Shown one piece after another: positions 6,476 to 16,564 of a DNA stretch of 32,539 bases. Origin of the DNA: an uncultured Bacilli bacterium (GTDB lineage: Bacteria > Bacillota_I > Bacilli_A > RF39 > UBA660); NCBI GenBank assembly GCA_947626515.1, contig CANQSL010000012.1, forward strand, positions 1-32,539. Reading direction: 5' to 3'. A program made the translations under genes and the position numbers. Each line of letters opens with the position of its first letter. The stretch's first letter is position 1. The notes below the pieces were generated by a model. The model ran no database searches. It saw only the letters and a list, made by a program, of their open reading frames with translations, and was not told the DNA's origin.

Positions 6476-7366
6476 TCATTTATTTTTTAATTTTAATGCT
6501 TTTATTTTTTCAACATCAAATTCATTTTCTAAATCTAATGAATTAATCATACTTATTGTATCATCATAAATATTTTCACCTTTTATTCCCATATCGTTAG
6601 GAGAAGATATTATTAAATCCTTTTCCGTAGCATTTTTGATCTTGATAATTTCAGAAACAGTAGCAGGTCTTCCATATCCATAGAACCAATTAAAATTTTG
6701 TACTGGTACACTTTCTAGAACTCTAAATAATATTCTCCTCAAAAATTCTTTTGCAACAATAGGAAAATAACATTTTTCAATATCTAAAAATATCTCACCA
6801 GGTTTTTTTAAATATATTTTAATATCCACTATTTCATCGTAAACTAATGCAAGTTCAAATGCATTAAAATTAATCATTTCTCCCTTTTCTTCCAAAGCTT
6901 GAATAATATAGAGAGTAGCTAAGCCACGATTTATAATTTGATTTGTCCTAGTATTCGAAGGATAACCTAAATTATAATAAACATTTCTAACAGTGGCCGA
7001 GTTATCCCTTTCATATCTAAGCATACAATCAGGAACTCCTGAAGCTACCAATGGAGATAAGGGAATTCCTCCATAAAGCCCTCTAGCAAGTTTTCTATTA
7101 TCGCTTAAATTTAATTCTGCATTTACTAGTTCTTTATTTGCTTTCAAAAAATTATTTAATCCAATTTTATATCCACTATTTAAATATTCTATAGACTTGT
7201 TTAAAGACTCTCCATAAAAAGAATCAGGAGATAAACTAGATTGAATATTAAATACAATATTATTTACTTCAGGATCACTTTTTAAATAATTATATAAATC
7301 AGTAATATTTAAAAAATCTATGCTATAAAGTGTATAATCTTCATTTTTAATTATTTCTGTTCTCAT
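6476..7366 (-). CDS. vWA-like partner protein of the AAA+ ATPase (uncharacterised)
   Basis: This 296-aa soluble protein is the last gene of a four-gene operon and overlaps the AAA+ gene by ATGA. Its core is GGIPLSPLVASGVPDCM (99-115), then RNVYYNLGYPSNTRTNQIINRG (127-148), a helix LATLYIIQALEEKG and strands leading to IYLKKPGE, then FPIVAKEFLRRILFRVLE (201-218). This pattern ('VPxCM', then a basic strand, 'RGxAxxxxIxxLExxG', then 'P..lRR..FR..E') recalls a family of phage and bacterial proteins with a von Willebrand-A-like fold that sit beside CobS/MoxR ATPases (I think DUF7192); this is recall, not a search. No MIDAS DxSxS is visible, so metal binding is doubtful. The likely role is substrate recognition for the ATPase. 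Confidence 0.6.
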   Translation of the reverse strand: MRTEIIKNEDYTLYSIDFLNITDLYNYLKSDPEVNNIVFNIQSSLSPDSFYGESLNKSIEYLNSGYKIGLNNFLKANKELVNAELNLSDNRKLARGLYGGIPLSPLVASGVPDCMLRYERDNSATVRNVYYNLGYPSNTRTNQIINRGLATLYIIQALEEKGEMINFNAFELALVYDEIVDIKIYLKKPGEIFLDIEKCYFPIVAKEFLRRILFRVLESVPVQNFNWFYGYGRPATVSEIIKIKNATEKDLIISSPNDMGIKGENIYDDTISMINSLDLENEFDVEKIKALKLKNK

Positions 7367-9516
7367 TGTTCACTCTTTTCTTTTATTAAAGAATTAAAAG
7401 TTTTTAAAAGTTTTTTACCACCATTTGTAAATTCATTTCTTTCTGCTGATTCTTTCATTCTTTGAGAAAGTTTATTTAATAGATCTATATCTTTAGTTTG
7501 AATAAATTCAAATTCTAATATTTTTTCTGTAGTAAAACTATTATTATCTAAATATTTTTTTACACTTTGGGCATCTCTAGTAGTAAATGTTCCCATAGTG
7601 TTTTTTTCTTCTCCACCAGTTGGGATTAATTCTATAGCTTTTCTAAAATTAATTGCAAAATTGTACCAATCTGGATAATCTTTTAAAATTAACTTTTCTA
7701 TTCTATTATCGTAATTAACTTCAATTGGAGTCAATCTCTGAAGTACTGACTCATCCATTTTTTGTCTAGTATTATATGCAACTGTTCTTCCTTCACCTTT
7801 AGTATTACCCGATGTAATAATTCTAAAGTTAGGATGCTTTTTAGTACTTATTCCATCTGGAAAAGTATAACTTTCTTCATTTGATCCAATAAATCTATTT
7901 AATACTACTGTAGCACTTGCAATACCATTATCTAATTCATCTAAAAATATTGTCTTTCCATATTTATAAGAATTATAAAAATTATTAGGCACATATCCAC
8001 CAGTTGCACTATTTGTATATCCTATTACATCTTGTTCATATAAAATATAACCACAAGCAAGAACATCAATATTTAATAATTTAGCTAATTGAGATTGAAT
8101 CATATATGTTTTACCACATCCACTTGGTCCATGAATATAAGGAGTTTGCCCTTGTATTATTAATTTAACAATATCGTCAAATCTTTCATGAAATATCTCG
8201 CCATTTTTTTCTGCTGCTTCTTTCAACTTTAATATTTTTTCATATCTTTCATTAAATGGAATACTTTCATTAAAATAATAATTAATAGTATAATCAATTT
8301 CCTTTTCTATATTTGTTATAATATTTGGAACAATGATTTGTGTAGAAGAATTTAAGCTTTGCTTAGGCTCTACTTCAATTCCTTTTTGTGATATTAAATC
8401 GGATATTTCCGTCAACTTATTTAAAAAATCTTCATCTGTTTTAGCATTATTTATTATAGACTTTATTTTTTCACTATTTTCAACAAATTCTTCTAACTTT
8501 CTAACTGATCCATCAGTAGCAGAATTTACTCTTCCTAGTTGTATTTTAGCTATTCTTTCAATGTCATCTGCATAGCTTAATAATTCTCCTCTTCTAGACT
8601 CTAATTCTGTTCTAATAGATGCTAATAATTCATCTTTTTCATCATATATACTTTTCTTTTGACCATTTAATAACTTTAAATAATCATCATTGAAACTTTT
8701 AATTATTTCTCCACTTTTTTTACTTAATTCACGCAAAGCTGAGTCTTTGCCATCTTTTATAGCAATATCAATTTTTAAAATAGAATTTTCAATATCTTCT
8801 TTAGATTGTTTAGCAGATTCAATTAATGTTCTAATAGATTTATCTAAATTTTTTAGTTCTGATAACTTCTCGCTCATTTCAGCTAAAGTATATTTATCAA
8901 CGTCATAAATACCATTACTTTTTTTATCTTCTTCAAGCTTTTTTTCAACATCTTCTTCTACGTCTAATGAACTATATTTAAATACACTATCATCTATATT
9001 ATTAATTAATGAAATAAAAGATGTATAAAGAGCTCTATCATCAACAAAAAATTCTCTTGCTTTTACTAAATAATCTATTACTATAGCTATATTATCTTCA
9101 TTATAACAATTTATTATTTTATCGTTAGTAGTTATATAAGAAAATAATTCAAAAACTATTCTCTTGTCATCAAATGAATTAACTACTTTAATAAAATTAT
9201 CATTTTTAGTAAATATTTCTTGATTTTTTAAAAATAAATCTACTAAATTAAGTAAAATTTTTCTTTCTTCTGATTTATTTCTATTTACACAAATTGAAAA
9301 ATACATATTAATTATAAAAGGCAAAATAGTTTGAAAGTTTTCATCAGTCAAAGATATTTTTTCTAAAATATCACATAATAATTCCTCATCTTGTATTTTA
9401 TTTAAAACTTTTTGAAAATCATAATTATAAATTTCACTAGAATATTCATAATTACTATAATATATATCTTTTTTTATTTTTTCCAATGTCTTCTTTTCAT
9501 TATTAAAAATTCCCAT
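7363..9516 (-). CDS. MoxR/CobS-type AAA+ ATPase with long coiled-coil N-terminus
   Basis: The 717-aa protein has three visible parts. Residues 1-200 are helical and HEAT-like. Residues about 205-385 are charged coiled coil (repeats such as KLSELKNLDKSIRTLIESAK). An AAA+ module follows from about 420: Walker A GPSGCGKT (463-470), Walker B FLDELD (524-529), sensor-1 IITSGNT (566-572) and an arginine-finger candidate in DESVLQRL (R594). The Walker B 'DELD' and the 'VIGYTNSATGGYVP' loop point to the MoxR/CobS clade, chaperone-like remodelling ATPases that work with vWA proteins. ATG follows GAGGGGGC, which is embedded in the end of the preceding gene. The client is unknown; the cotranscribed TelA-like and beta-rich proteins are obvious candidates. 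Confidence 0.88.
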   Translation of the reverse strand: MGIFNNEKKTLEKIKKDIYYSNYEYSSEIYNYDFQKVLNKIQDEELLCDILEKISLTDENFQTILPFIINMYFSICVNRNKSEERKILLNLVDLFLKNQEIFTKNDNFIKVVNSFDDKRIVFELFSYITTNDKIINCYNEDNIAIVIDYLVKAREFFVDDRALYTSFISLINNIDDSVFKYSSLDVEEDVEKKLEEDKKSNGIYDVDKYTLAEMSEKLSELKNLDKSIRTLIESAKQSKEDIENSILKIDIAIKDGKDSALRELSKKSGEIIKSFNDDYLKLLNGQKKSIYDEKDELLASIRTELESRRGELLSYADDIERIAKIQLGRVNSATDGSVRKLEEFVENSEKIKSIINNAKTDEDFLNKLTEISDLISQKGIEVEPKQSLNSSTQIIVPNIITNIEKEIDYTINYYFNESIPFNERYEKILKLKEAAEKNGEIFHERFDDIVKLIIQGQTPYIHGPSGCGKTYMIQSQLAKLLNIDVLACGYILYEQDVIGYTNSATGGYVPNNFYNSYKYGKTIFLDELDNGIASATVVLNRFIGSNEESYTFPDGISTKKHPNFRIITSGNTKGEGRTVAYNTRQKMDESVLQRLTPIEVNYDNRIEKLILKDYPDWYNFAINFRKAIELIPTGGEEKNTMGTFTTRDAQSVKKYLDNNSFTTEKILEFEFIQTKDIDLLNKLSQRMKESAERNEFTNGGKKLLKTFNSLIKEKSEQ

Positions 9517-9519
9517 TTT

Positions 9520-10743
9520 TTATTTGCCCCCTCTAAGAACATATTTTTTTACATCATCTAAAAATATTATTTCTTCTTTAATTTCTTTAGTATTTATAAT
9601 ATCAAAAGGTTTTGTTAAATCTAAATCACAATTTACTTCAATTATAGAATAAGAATAAGAAGAATTAAAATTATTTTTAAATTGTTTTTCCATTAATATA
9701 TAATATTTATTATCAATACATATTTTAGATATTATAATTTCTACAGTATCTTGATCCAATGTCACTCTTATTTGATCATCATATTTGTTAAAACCATTTT
9801 TAATACTATATTTAATACTTATATTATTTTTATCCAACTCAATTTGCGATCCAATTTTTTTATATAATTTGCCCTCTTTTTCATTGCTTATTAATTCTTC
9901 ATCAGTTAATACAAATGAAGATTCATTAATTTTTAAAATATGACTTGGTTTATTTAGTTGACACAAATTATAATAAAAATCTATTATTTTAGTATCATCC
10001 ATCGTTATACTATTTAAAGTATTATCTAAATACAATACTTCTTCTTGTGAATCTATTCTCTTTTCAGCTTTATTATTTTGTGCCATATATTCAATATGAC
10101 CTTCATTATTATTTTTATCAGTCCAATCTACCGTTATTTTTCCAGAGTCATTTTCTATTTTTCCCTCGATAGAATTAAGTGTTTTATCTATTATATTTAA
10201 TCTAAAACTAATTGTATCATCATCTAGTTGAGATATAATTATTGGGATACTTTTCTTTACTGAACCAATATTATAATTTATAAAAAATTTATGATTATAT
10301 CCATCAATACTAGTTATGTTAAATGTTTCATAATTTTTAGTATAAGATATTATTACTTTAATAGCTTCCTTTAAAATATTTTTAAACCATATTAAATATC
10401 TATCAAAGGAATTAAATATTGCCAACCCTTTATTTTGATTTCCAGTAACATTTTCTTTTTTTAAAACATCAAAAGACGATTCATTAATTAATTTCTTAGT
10501 TAATGAACCTAACAATATTATTTTTCTACTATCTTTTTCTATATTATATGTTTCAAGTATTTTTCTTATAAAAGTTTCAAAAAACTTATCTTTGTAATCT
10601 AAAGATAAAATTTTATTGTTGTTATATACAACTTTGGCACCAATATATTTATTAGTATCATTTTTAAAAATACTATCATAAGAATATATATATATTAATT
10701 CTAAATTCTTTATATCGGAAATTAAAACCCCTTTTAAGTCCAT
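9520..10743 (-). CDS. Hypothetical beta-rich protein, 407 aa, in TelA-AAA+ operon
   Basis: I do not recognise this protein. It starts one base inside the TelA-like stop codon (TAATG) behind GGTGG, and stops 3 nt before the AAA+ gene, so it is clearly part of the same translation-coupled unit. There is no signal peptide or membrane helix. The N-terminal 150 residues mix strands and helices; from about 150 to 390 it is a succession of short beta strands (for example RLNIIDKTLNSIEGKI, IRVTLDQDTVEIIISK), as in a beta-sandwich or repeated barrel. It ends in VLRGGK, whose Gly codons supply the next gene's ribosome site. It may be the scaffold or sensor of the system; no function can be assigned. 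Confidence 0.8.
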   Translation of the reverse strand: MDLKGVLISDIKNLELIYIYSYDSIFKNDTNKYIGAKVVYNNNKILSLDYKDKFFETFIRKILETYNIEKDSRKIILLGSLTKKLINESSFDVLKKENVTGNQNKGLAIFNSFDRYLIWFKNILKEAIKVIISYTKNYETFNITSIDGYNHKFFINYNIGSVKKSIPIIISQLDDDTISFRLNIIDKTLNSIEGKIENDSGKITVDWTDKNNNEGHIEYMAQNNKAEKRIDSQEEVLYLDNTLNSITMDDTKIIDFYYNLCQLNKPSHILKINESSFVLTDEELISNEKEGKLYKKIGSQIELDKNNISIKYSIKNGFNKYDDQIRVTLDQDTVEIIISKICIDNKYYILMEKQFKNNFNSSYSYSIIEVNCDLDLTKPFDIINTKEIKEEIIFLDDVKKYVLRGGK

Positions 10744-11921
10744 TATTTTCCACCTAATCTATTTCGTTTAATAGGTTTTAAACTTTTAGTATGACTATCT
10801 TTTGAAATAACATCTGCAAATTGAGATTCACTCAATACTTGTTGCCATTCTTGATTATAAGAATCCAAAGCTTGTGATAACTTTTCATACTCAACCCTTT
10901 GCTTATCGTTTAAAGCTTGTTTTTGAGCTCTACCATTTTTAAATACTTCTGCACCTTTTCTTAAACAACTTTCAACAACTTGTACAGTTTCTAAAGTAAT
11001 TCCACCATTTAAACTCAAATCTATTGCAGATGTTGCATTTTCAGCTAAATCATGTGCATTTTCTTGAATAGCTTTATTAGCAGCAGTATTTAATGCAACT
11101 AATTCACCTAATTTATTTTTTTGATCACGATTAAAGATTTTAACGCTACCTTGAGCCTTTAAGATTTTTTCTCCATCACTTAACCAACTTTCTTGTTGCA
11201 TTACAATTTCCATCTCAGTAGCTTGTTGCATTCTATAACTTTGTACTTGTTCTTTATATAAAGTTAATACATTATTTAAACTAGTAAGTTTATTATTAAA
11301 AGTTTGAGATAATTGCTCTTTAAATTGAATTTCATGTTGCACATCAATTGTTTGTTCTAATTTTTTTAATTCTTCTATCTGTCTATCAAAAGTCTCCTTA
11401 TCAATATATCCAACTTTAATCATTTCTTCTAATTGTTTAATATAAGGAATCATTTCTTCGATTATAGCTTGTCTTAAATTATAATTATTAATTGAACCTT
11501 GTTTTTGAGACTCTACTGCAGTAGATATTTCTTCTATATATTGACAATATTCTTTAAAACGTCCTTTATAAGTTTTTGACTCTTCATCTTCTTTAAATTT
11601 CTCAATTCCCATTTTACTTAAAAAGTTCTTTACATTTTTTACAACAGGCAATTGTTTTTTATTTTTTAATTCTTCACTTTCATCTAAACTTTTATCTAAA
11701 GTTTGAATTTTATTTAACAAATCTTGTTTTATACTAAGTTCATTAGTTTCTACTGATAATTCAGCAGTTTTTTCTAAAACTCCAGTAACAGAATCCTTTA
11801 CATCATTACAATAATTTAATAATGTTGGTGGATTTGAAAAATCAACTCTTTCAAAATTGCAATTTATTATTTCTCCTTTTTCATTATAAACAGTTAAATT
11901 TGTTTCTTTATTTTCCTCCAT
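10743..11921 (-). CDS. TelA-like coiled-coil protein (toxic anion resistance family, divergent)
   Basis: This 392-aa protein is mostly long helices rich in Lys, Glu and Gln, with no membrane segment. The C-terminal half follows the TelA/KlaA layout: a long helix (LSQTFNNKLTSLNNVLTLYK), a Gln/Met-rich QSYRMQQATEMEIVMQQESW, then LGELVALNTAANKAIQENAH and a final helix after GGITLETVQVVESC. TelA proteins are known from tellurite and Ter-type stress operons, where MoxR ATPases and vWA proteins also occur. Its N-terminus (LTVYNEKGEIINC) looks like a small separate beta domain. ATG follows AGGAGGA at a good distance. It is the first gene of the operon, behind a leader with a terminator. Assignment rests on remembered family patterns. 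Confidence 0.68.
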   Translation of the reverse strand: MEENKETNLTVYNEKGEIINCNFERVDFSNPPTLLNYCNDVKDSVTGVLEKTAELSVETNELSIKQDLLNKIQTLDKSLDESEELKNKKQLPVVKNVKNFLSKMGIEKFKEDEESKTYKGRFKEYCQYIEEISTAVESQKQGSINNYNLRQAIIEEMIPYIKQLEEMIKVGYIDKETFDRQIEELKKLEQTIDVQHEIQFKEQLSQTFNNKLTSLNNVLTLYKEQVQSYRMQQATEMEIVMQQESWLSDGEKILKAQGSVKIFNRDQKNKLGELVALNTAANKAIQENAHDLAENATSAIDLSLNGGITLETVQVVESCLRKGAEVFKNGRAQKQALNDKQRVEYEKLSQALDSYNQEWQQVLSESQFADVISKDSHTKSLKPIKRNRLGGK

Positions 11922-12060
11922 TTATTTCCTCCTATATTTTTAGACAAAAAAAACTTTTAAAAATGCAGTATCACTATTTTTAAAAGTTTATTTCAAATAT
12001 TCATATTTTAAAACGATTAAATCCAATAAATGTTATTTGAAATTTTTGTCCCTTTTCGAG
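11922..12060 (-). promoter_or_regulatory. Long structured 5' leader of the TelA-AAA+ operon (candidate attenuator)
   Basis: The leader is about 137 nt from the predicted start to the ATG at 11921. It contains a 10-bp inverted pair (12034-12043 with 11990-11999, 34 nt apart) followed immediately by a terminator hairpin (11946-11989), then AGGAGGA and the start codon. Several TTTTAAAA segments could swap partners between the two structures. No known riboswitch consensus is recognised. An alternative is a short independent RNA of about 115 nt. Confidence 0.5.
11946..11989 (-). terminator. Intrinsic terminator inside the leader, before the TelA-like gene
   Basis: On the minus strand AAACTTTTAAAAAT pairs perfectly with ATTTTTAAAAGTTT (14 bp, 11-nt loop) and runs on into more T. 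It lies between a strong promoter and the first gene it would serve, the geometry of transcription attenuation. The stem is almost all A-T, so its efficiency is uncertain. Confidence 0.6.
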
Positions 12061-12065
12061 GTAAT

Positions 12066-12093
12066 ATTATACCATATTACATAATTTTGTCAA
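12066..12093 (-). promoter_or_regulatory. Strong promoter of the TelA-AAA+ operon
   Basis: TTGACA (12088-12093, minus), a 16-bp spacer and TATAAT (12066-12071): both hexamers match the sigma-A consensus perfectly, the best promoter in the window. Transcription should start near 12058-12060. Confidence 0.75.
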
Positions 12094-15841: not shown

Positions 15842-16564
15842 TTAATTTACATTGCTATTTACTATCTCTGATGATTTATCAAAATTTGTACCAATAAAGT
15901 TTGGTACTTGCCCATTTACAAGCTTACTCGCTAATAAATATTTATAAGAAATAGTTGAAGTATCGCTTTCTGTTGGCATCTCTATTATTTCTTTAATATT
16001 AATATTTATATATAACTTTATTAAAGAATTATTAATTCCATAATTTGAAACTTCTACATCTACATTAGCCTCTAAATTATTTAAAAAGCTTGATTTTATA
16101 GGTATTTTTGGCCCTAGATTAGCTAAAATAGCATTATTAAAAATTACTCCTGTTGGAACATAAAGTACAACTCCATTATTTCCTCTTAATAATTCTAAAT
16201 TAAAATAATCATTAATATCTCCCTTAGTAATATTTTTTATATTGTTAGTTAAGTCTTCTATAATTAGTTTTAACAACTTATTAGAATTTTCTTGGTCAAT
16301 ATCAACGTTTACAATATTATTATTGACAAAATTTAATTTAATATAATCATTTGTATCAATATTCAAAAATTTTTTTATAGTATTATTTAAATAATACCTA
16401 TTTAATTCCTCTAACTTTATCTTAACAATATTAACAACATTTTTACTTAAATTTTTAGTATAATATCCAAAAAATATATAATCAAAAATAATTATTAATA
16501 ATAATATTAAAAACACATAGTTAATTTTTCTTTTATTATATTTTCTTGCATTAAAACGTTTCAT
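15842..16564 (-). CDS. yunB: Sporulation protein YunB-like
   Basis: The 240-aa protein has one N-terminal membrane helix (INYVFLILLLIIIFDYIFFG, 14-33) and an extracytoplasmic domain. Family marks are LANLGPKIPIKSSFLNNLEA (about 148-167) and VSNYGINNSLIKLYININI with a late GQVPNFIG, matching YunB, a sigma-E-controlled sporulation protein of Bacillus. The length fits. No Shine-Dalgarno is visible before ATG 16564, so expression may depend on coupling to the 257-aa gene 30 nt upstream. YunB occurs in spore formers, so it hints at present or ancestral sporulation. Confidence 0.8.
   Translation of the reverse strand: MKRFNARKYNKRKINYVFLILLLIIIFDYIFFGYYTKNLSKNVVNIVKIKLEELNRYYLNNTIKKFLNIDTNDYIKLNFVNNNIVNVDIDQENSNKLLKLIIEDLTNNIKNITKGDINDYFNLELLRGNNGVVLYVPTGVIFNNAILANLGPKIPIKSSFLNNLEANVDVEVSNYGINNSLIKLYININIKEIIEMPTESDTSTISYKYLLASKLVNGQVPNFIGTNFDKSSEIVNSNVN

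Follow-up and report, generated by a model that had tools for sequence, protein, structure and literature searches.

A patchily distributed TelA-linked gene set of uncultured Bacilli that may encode a MoxR-vWA-type remodelling machine

The AAA+ ATPases CobS, CbbQ and NorQ are rings that work with vWA partners, and the MIDAS of NorD binds the target and not the ring. In NorQ-NorD, CbbQ-CbbO and RavA-ViaA, the gene of a MoxR-clade ATPase adjoins the gene of a vWA-fold partner. In NorQ-NorD, a finger of the vWA protein plugs the pore of the hexamer and motion is passed to the target, which was suggested to be general for MoxR/vWA couples (PMC9976466), and RavA-ViaA works at the inner membrane on lipids (PMC9489729). 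The predicted MoxR-vWA ternary conflict systems (eLife 2020, PMC7159879) have a patchy distribution and add dedicated components to the MoxR and vWA proteins; some of their vWA members are without the MIDAS aspartates, and TelA is nowhere mentioned in that paper.

A TelA-family coiled-coil protein is found in the Ter stress systems and in the XpaC-TelA pair. TelA is widespread and tied to tolerance of tellurite and of cell-wall-acting agents, by a mechanism that is not established. A Listeria TelA mutant, as cited in PMC12791056 and PMC8740179, had raised sensitivity to nisin and tellurite.

The locus compared here with these systems lies on contig CANQSL010000012.1 of an uncultured Bacilli bacterium (GCA_947626515.1), and the whole stretch analysed, 32,539 nt, is referred to as the window. 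Four minus-strand genes in the order T-B-A-D form one packed run spanning 6476-11921, with a 1-nt overlap at the T/B junction (-1), a 3-nt gap between B and A (+3) and a 4-nt overlap between A and D (-4). The coordinates and junctions given in a preliminary description of this DNA were found to be exact when the open reading frames were read again.

12066..12093, minus strand: predicted sigma-70-type promoter, TTGACA-16-TATAAT with TG ahead of the -10 (extended -10), 12/12 consensus match
11927..11933, minus strand: strong ribosome-binding site AGGAGGA ahead of the T start, read from the sequence
10743..11921, minus strand: T, TelA-family coiled-coil protein, 392 aa (Pfam PF05816, 5.4e-09, 36 bits)
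9520..10743, minus strand: B, beta-rich protein of unrecognised fold, 407 aa (AF2 model, no Pfam family)
7363..9516, minus strand: A, MoxR/CobS-type AAA+ ATPase, 717 aa (AAA_5, 2e-08; phrog_249, 1.7e-28)
8107..8130, minus strand: Walker A of A, GPSGCGKT, residues 463-470 (alignments)
7936..7950, minus strand: Walker B of A, IFLDE, residues 523-527 (alignments)
6476..7366, minus strand: D, DUF7192 protein, 296 aa (Pfam PF23822, 1.2e-14), likely vWA-type fold (AF2 and Foldseek)
6959..6973, minus strand: NLGYP, residues 132-136 of D, at the position expected for the MIDAS DxSxS (placed by eye from the strand pattern)

The predicted promoter lies ~145 nt upstream of the T start codon; promoter-like matches are frequent in the local AT-rich DNA, and this was the single 12/12 match within the 6.9 kb scanned. 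Transmembrane segments were not detected by hydropathy in T, B, A or D.

The AAA+ protein with clear Walker motifs of the preliminary description was recovered as such, with both motifs aligned and AAA_5 exceeding the Pfam cut-off, and the same protein matched the phage family phrog_249. Among solved structures, CobS came first (6e-08), followed by CbbQ and NorQ. Therefore, A was placed with the MoxR/chelatase AAA+ proteins, and on its sequence it is a member of that clade of the CobS/NorQ type. The ~440 residues N-terminal to the AAA+ module look helical or coiled-coil. Plasmid matches of A, aligned over ~160 residues, were ordinary MoxR/CobS ATPases and were rejected as relatives of the set.

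The last gene product, D, scored 54.8 bits against DUF7192 (curated cut-off 27), and the same family was matched by 40/40 of its relatives. When an AF2 model built from the window sequence and 21 relatives (pLDDT 83.9, pTM 0.79) was compared with the PDB by Foldseek, the top four matches (E 1.7e-4 and probability 0.98 for the best) were all NorD VWA chains from structures of NorQ-NorD; small GTPases and other vWA domains matched weakly further down. The global TM-score between D and NorD was low (0.31) and none of the Pfam vWA families matched D by sequence, so that the assignment draws on local fold similarity and on the identity of the partner A; a vWA-type fold, closest to the NorD co-chaperone type, is likely. 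At the DxSxS position no intact MIDAS was found, and across the 40 D relatives the first MIDAS residue was D in 4/40 and N in 21/40, a degeneration that extends to two-gene and phage loci. The earlier label of a vWA-like protein thus holds for D at the level of fold, but not at that of Pfam vWA matches or of the MIDAS.

T exceeds the curated cut-off of PF05816 (36 bits against 30), in agreement with its previous naming as TelA-like. Its relatives score 20-202 bits, some of them under the cut-off, and at most loci where T comes first the score is 24-84 bits, against ~400 for canonical TelA in the same bacterial family; judged by these profile scores, T is a divergent TelA. The short T of Clostridia (~205 aa) exceeded the TelA cut-off in 2/3 tested (46.6 and 36.3 bits), the third scoring 20.3. 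When the profile of the long T family was compared with that of the short one, the probability reached only 45%, and their kinship is argued from the match of both to Pfam TelA.

The model of B (pLDDT 83.8, pTM 0.75) is beta-rich with some helices, which bears out the 'beta-rich' label. No Pfam family was found for B; Foldseek gave no PDB match under E 1e-3 and no convincing match among viral structure models, and no beta-propeller match was convincing. Weak sequence matches to proteins of the Nup358 and RanBP1 type (E 0.005-0.07), and one to a sigma-factor model (0.0016), were discounted as fortuitous.

To follow the set across genomes, 386 genomes of the bacterial family were surveyed. D was present in 37/386 and B in 20/386, while TelA over its cut-off was found in 45/386. 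A and D were neighbours at nearly all surveyed loci, mostly ≤20 nt apart, and three layouts were seen: A-D, B-A-D and T-B-A-D. The complete T-B-A-D order occurred at 12 distinct loci of uncultured Bacilli (the window, L007, L010, L051, L059, L066, L082, L088, L093, L094, L095 and L098), a count that leaves out L096, L097, L099 and L100, whose contigs equal in length those of L082, L088, L051 and L059, respectively, and are taken to be the same. At 14 loci of Lachnospiraceae and Oscillospiraceae the order was B-A-D-T, with a short T. A single Bacilli locus, L065, also has T last, in this case an unmistakable TelA of 440 aa (202 bits). The position of T thus varies, whereas the order B-A-D is constant: T precedes B in most of the Bacilli sets and follows D in those of Clostridia. 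The possibility raised beforehand, that the four genes would not be neighbours in relatives, did not hold in this survey, and the same order at many independent loci, which is not due to chance, upholds the four genes as one self-contained unit. Queries with single proteins gave no matches in viral or genome contigs, and alignment-based queries gave none in viral contigs; relatives in genome contigs were recovered with a closer alignment as query.

The window genome holds three A-D loci: the window set, a second T-B-A-D set ahead of rsmC and rpoB (L007, 4460-9633) and a two-gene copy (L008, 6573-9208) that diverges from an apparent Tad/Flp pilus cluster. One clade of B-A-D loci has no adjacent T, which suggests that the set may do without T or draw on a T encoded at another place. 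In three genomes whose B-A-D loci are without T, open frames of ~1,370-1,640 aa that match TelA in part were seen (G107:C12, G385:C12 and G233:C6); these may contain an embedded T or be a chance coiled-coil match. Several other arrangements were observed. Within one A-D clade, one or two extra genes of ~300-330 aa follow closely behind D (L055 3485-5338, L056 9365-11206, L061 9164-10159 and L064 3526-5468), those scanned being without a Pfam family, and are possibly another accessory set. In L123 (36-6258), a divergent relative of the T-B-A-D set, T is followed by a protein weakly related to B (8e-9) and then by three genes without annotation, of 471, 503 and 281 aa. Other TelA-linked sets, in genomes without a DUF7192 match, have an operon-type TelA followed by proteins of 1,089 and 1,150 aa without Pfam domains (L119 1325-9621 and L120 5593-10203, respectively).

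Pairwise distances among A, B and D were correlated (r 0.83-0.97), as were those of T with the others (r 0.80-0.91), although such a correlation taken alone could stem from species relatedness. However, two genomes (G000 and G210) carry two sets each, and the window set resembled L088 in all four genes, with 38% identity in T, 38% in B, 42% in A and 52% in D, while other pairs shared 20-32%; comparisons across the two types of set gave 20-28%. L007 and L066 were mutually nearest for A (32%) and B (29%), and the relation was unclear for T and D. In an AAA+ tree with an arbitrary root and several long branches, the B-containing systems formed one group (support 94/85), apart from the two-gene loci and the phage copies, which grouped together.

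The congener G003 keeps the flanks of the window operon in order at 56-88% identity (orf12793, an S1-domain gene, MscL, orf5234, TsaB, a RimI-like acetyltransferase, TsaD and phosphoketolase) and has no operon; in its place are a gene for a small membrane protein and three Tim44-like genes (L144 3131-5767, G003:C34). The stretch from the S1 gene to mscL resembles a cassette site. At the L007 site, the LtaS-like gene adjoins rsmC in G002, G003 and G004, again without the operon; besides the operon, the window genome has two further additions there, a small ORF and a gene for a glycosyltransferase. As the flanks are intact without the operon at both sites, the operon is a discrete accessory block, present or absent as a whole, whose limits match the unit boundaries proposed earlier. 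Since 4/5 of the sampled congeners and ~90% of the family are without D, some genomes being incomplete, acquisition by transfer is considered more probable than repeated loss. MscL and the other flanking genes were rejected as members of the unit: 0/6 tested adjoin the operon in relatives, the flanks are continuous in the congener, and the single TsaB match in this test falls in L118. Elsewhere in the window, a gene for the sporulation protein YunB was seen (15842-16564, 7.3e-20), in a genome of 1.37 Mb.

Compared with the described systems, A-D is a couple of the MoxR-vWA type in that the AAA+ gene adjoins that of a vWA-fold partner, though the TM-score with NorD is low. However, D is short and without an intact MIDAS, A has a long helical front, and B and TelA are extra conserved members; moreover, unlike in NorQ-NorD and CbbQ-CbbO, neither a respiratory enzyme nor Rubisco is linked to T-B-A-D. 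With the ternary systems it shares a MoxR and a vWA protein with dedicated components and a patchy presence, but Pfam and PADLOC revealed no VMAP, iSTAND, FtsH or beta-propeller component, and the vWA protein is not fused to an effector. A known defence system was ruled out, as PADLOC gave no match. In contrast to Ter and XpaC-TelA, the TelA of the operon is mostly divergent and is paired with A, B and D, and no TerD gene was found in the whole assembly, which rules out a standard Ter operon, in agreement with the preliminary description. The closest likeness in phages is the Herelleviridae pair phrog_249 and phrog_1909 (AAA+/DUF7192), in which the same two families are adjacent and mostly in the same order, but the phage AAA+ is short, lacks the long front, is without B or TelA and belongs to another branch of the AAA+ tree. 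In its working the T-B-A-D core would resemble the MoxR-vWA kind, but it falls outside each of the named subsystems. No mention of DUF7192, and no description of a set joining TelA to MoxR, vWA or defence, was found in the literature searched, where subscription journals were thinly covered; on this weak evidence the set appears undescribed, as the preliminary description proposed.

To account for these features, we favour, at about an even chance, the view that the operon is an accessory cassette acquired by horizontal transfer and that its products make up a protein-remodelling machine of the MoxR-vWA type, with TelA and B coupled to it. A would form the ATPase ring, and D, as a vWA-fold co-chaperone without a standard MIDAS, would dock on the ring or plug it as NorD does on NorQ. 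T and B would be dedicated partners supplying the target of the ring or its place of action; because they travel with A-D, they are the first proteins to consider as target or tether. The likely task would be to remodel or assemble the TelA coiled-coil structure, or a complex scaffolded by TelA, at the inner face of the membrane when the envelope is under stress, for instance from antimicrobial peptides or phage. As the D proteins of two-gene and phage loci share the degenerate MIDAS, D would touch its targets otherwise, and B would not be a simple replacement of the MIDAS. Given the nisin and tellurite tolerance linked to TelA and the action of RavA-ViaA at the inner membrane, an envelope role is the first guess, and the cassette probably acts near the envelope under stress, by analogy with the behaviour of these proteins elsewhere. 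The low TM-score of D with NorD, its degenerate MIDAS, the clade without T and the lack of transmembrane segments argue against the machine.

The main rival to an envelope role is a role in conflict, because of the patchy presence, the multiple copies and the site with alternative contents. B and T would sense or execute in an anti-phage or conflict system like the ternary ones, and A-D would be the regulating chaperone. The counts of D (37/386) and B (20/386), the three A-D loci in the window genome, the other genes at the same site in the congener and the use of MoxR-vWA pairs as the core of predicted conflict systems (PMC7159879) are consistent with this. However, besides the missing PADLOC match, T, B, A and D contain no recognised effector domain (nuclease, TIR or peptidase), D has no variable C-terminal effector and no defence genes were among the window genes scanned, so that this role is rather unlikely.

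It is more improbable still that A-D is a domesticated phage chaperone for virion assembly or host takeover, joined later by B and T to serve an assembly task of the cell. A-D are adjacent, mostly in the same order, in Staphylococcus Kayvirus and in phages of Lactobacillus (3-521), Enterococcus and Listeria, the AAA+ tree joins the phage copies to the two-gene loci, and a MoxR-vWA pair was proposed for virion assembly in jumbo phages (PMC7824862). Against it, the B-containing systems are a separate group of that tree (94/85), a search of 50,697 phage records did not reveal B and phage structural genes are absent near the window operon; such an origin would, moreover, account for where the pair came from and not for its function. 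A CobS/CobT-type chelatase-like machine that inserts a cofactor metal is very improbable, for although CobS is the closest solved protein to A, the phage homologues are annotated 'porphyrin biosynthesis' and cobST is widespread in tailed viruses (PMC8651126), the large chelatase subunit is absent both from the operon and from the neighbourhood conserved around it, TelA and B are the partner proteins, and D has no CobT-type MIDAS.

Beyond the remodelling cassette favoured above, a broader reading is put forward tentatively, as possible but doubtful: the sets would form a class of multicomponent MoxR-vWA systems of their own that moves among Bacilli and Clostridia. In it, an AAA+/vWA chaperone pair of phage type would drive the assembly of the TelA coiled coil together with a beta protein whose fold is new, and the whole would serve immunity or resistance to antimicrobials; TelA would then gain an ATP-driven partner. 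For DUF7192, which is present in Staphylococcus Kayvirus phages and has no assigned function, the results suggest both a fold and a partner, and B adds a protein family without known relatives. By linking TelA in one conserved set with an ATP-driven chaperone and the vWA-fold partner of that chaperone, the locus opens the mechanism of TelA to direct tests.
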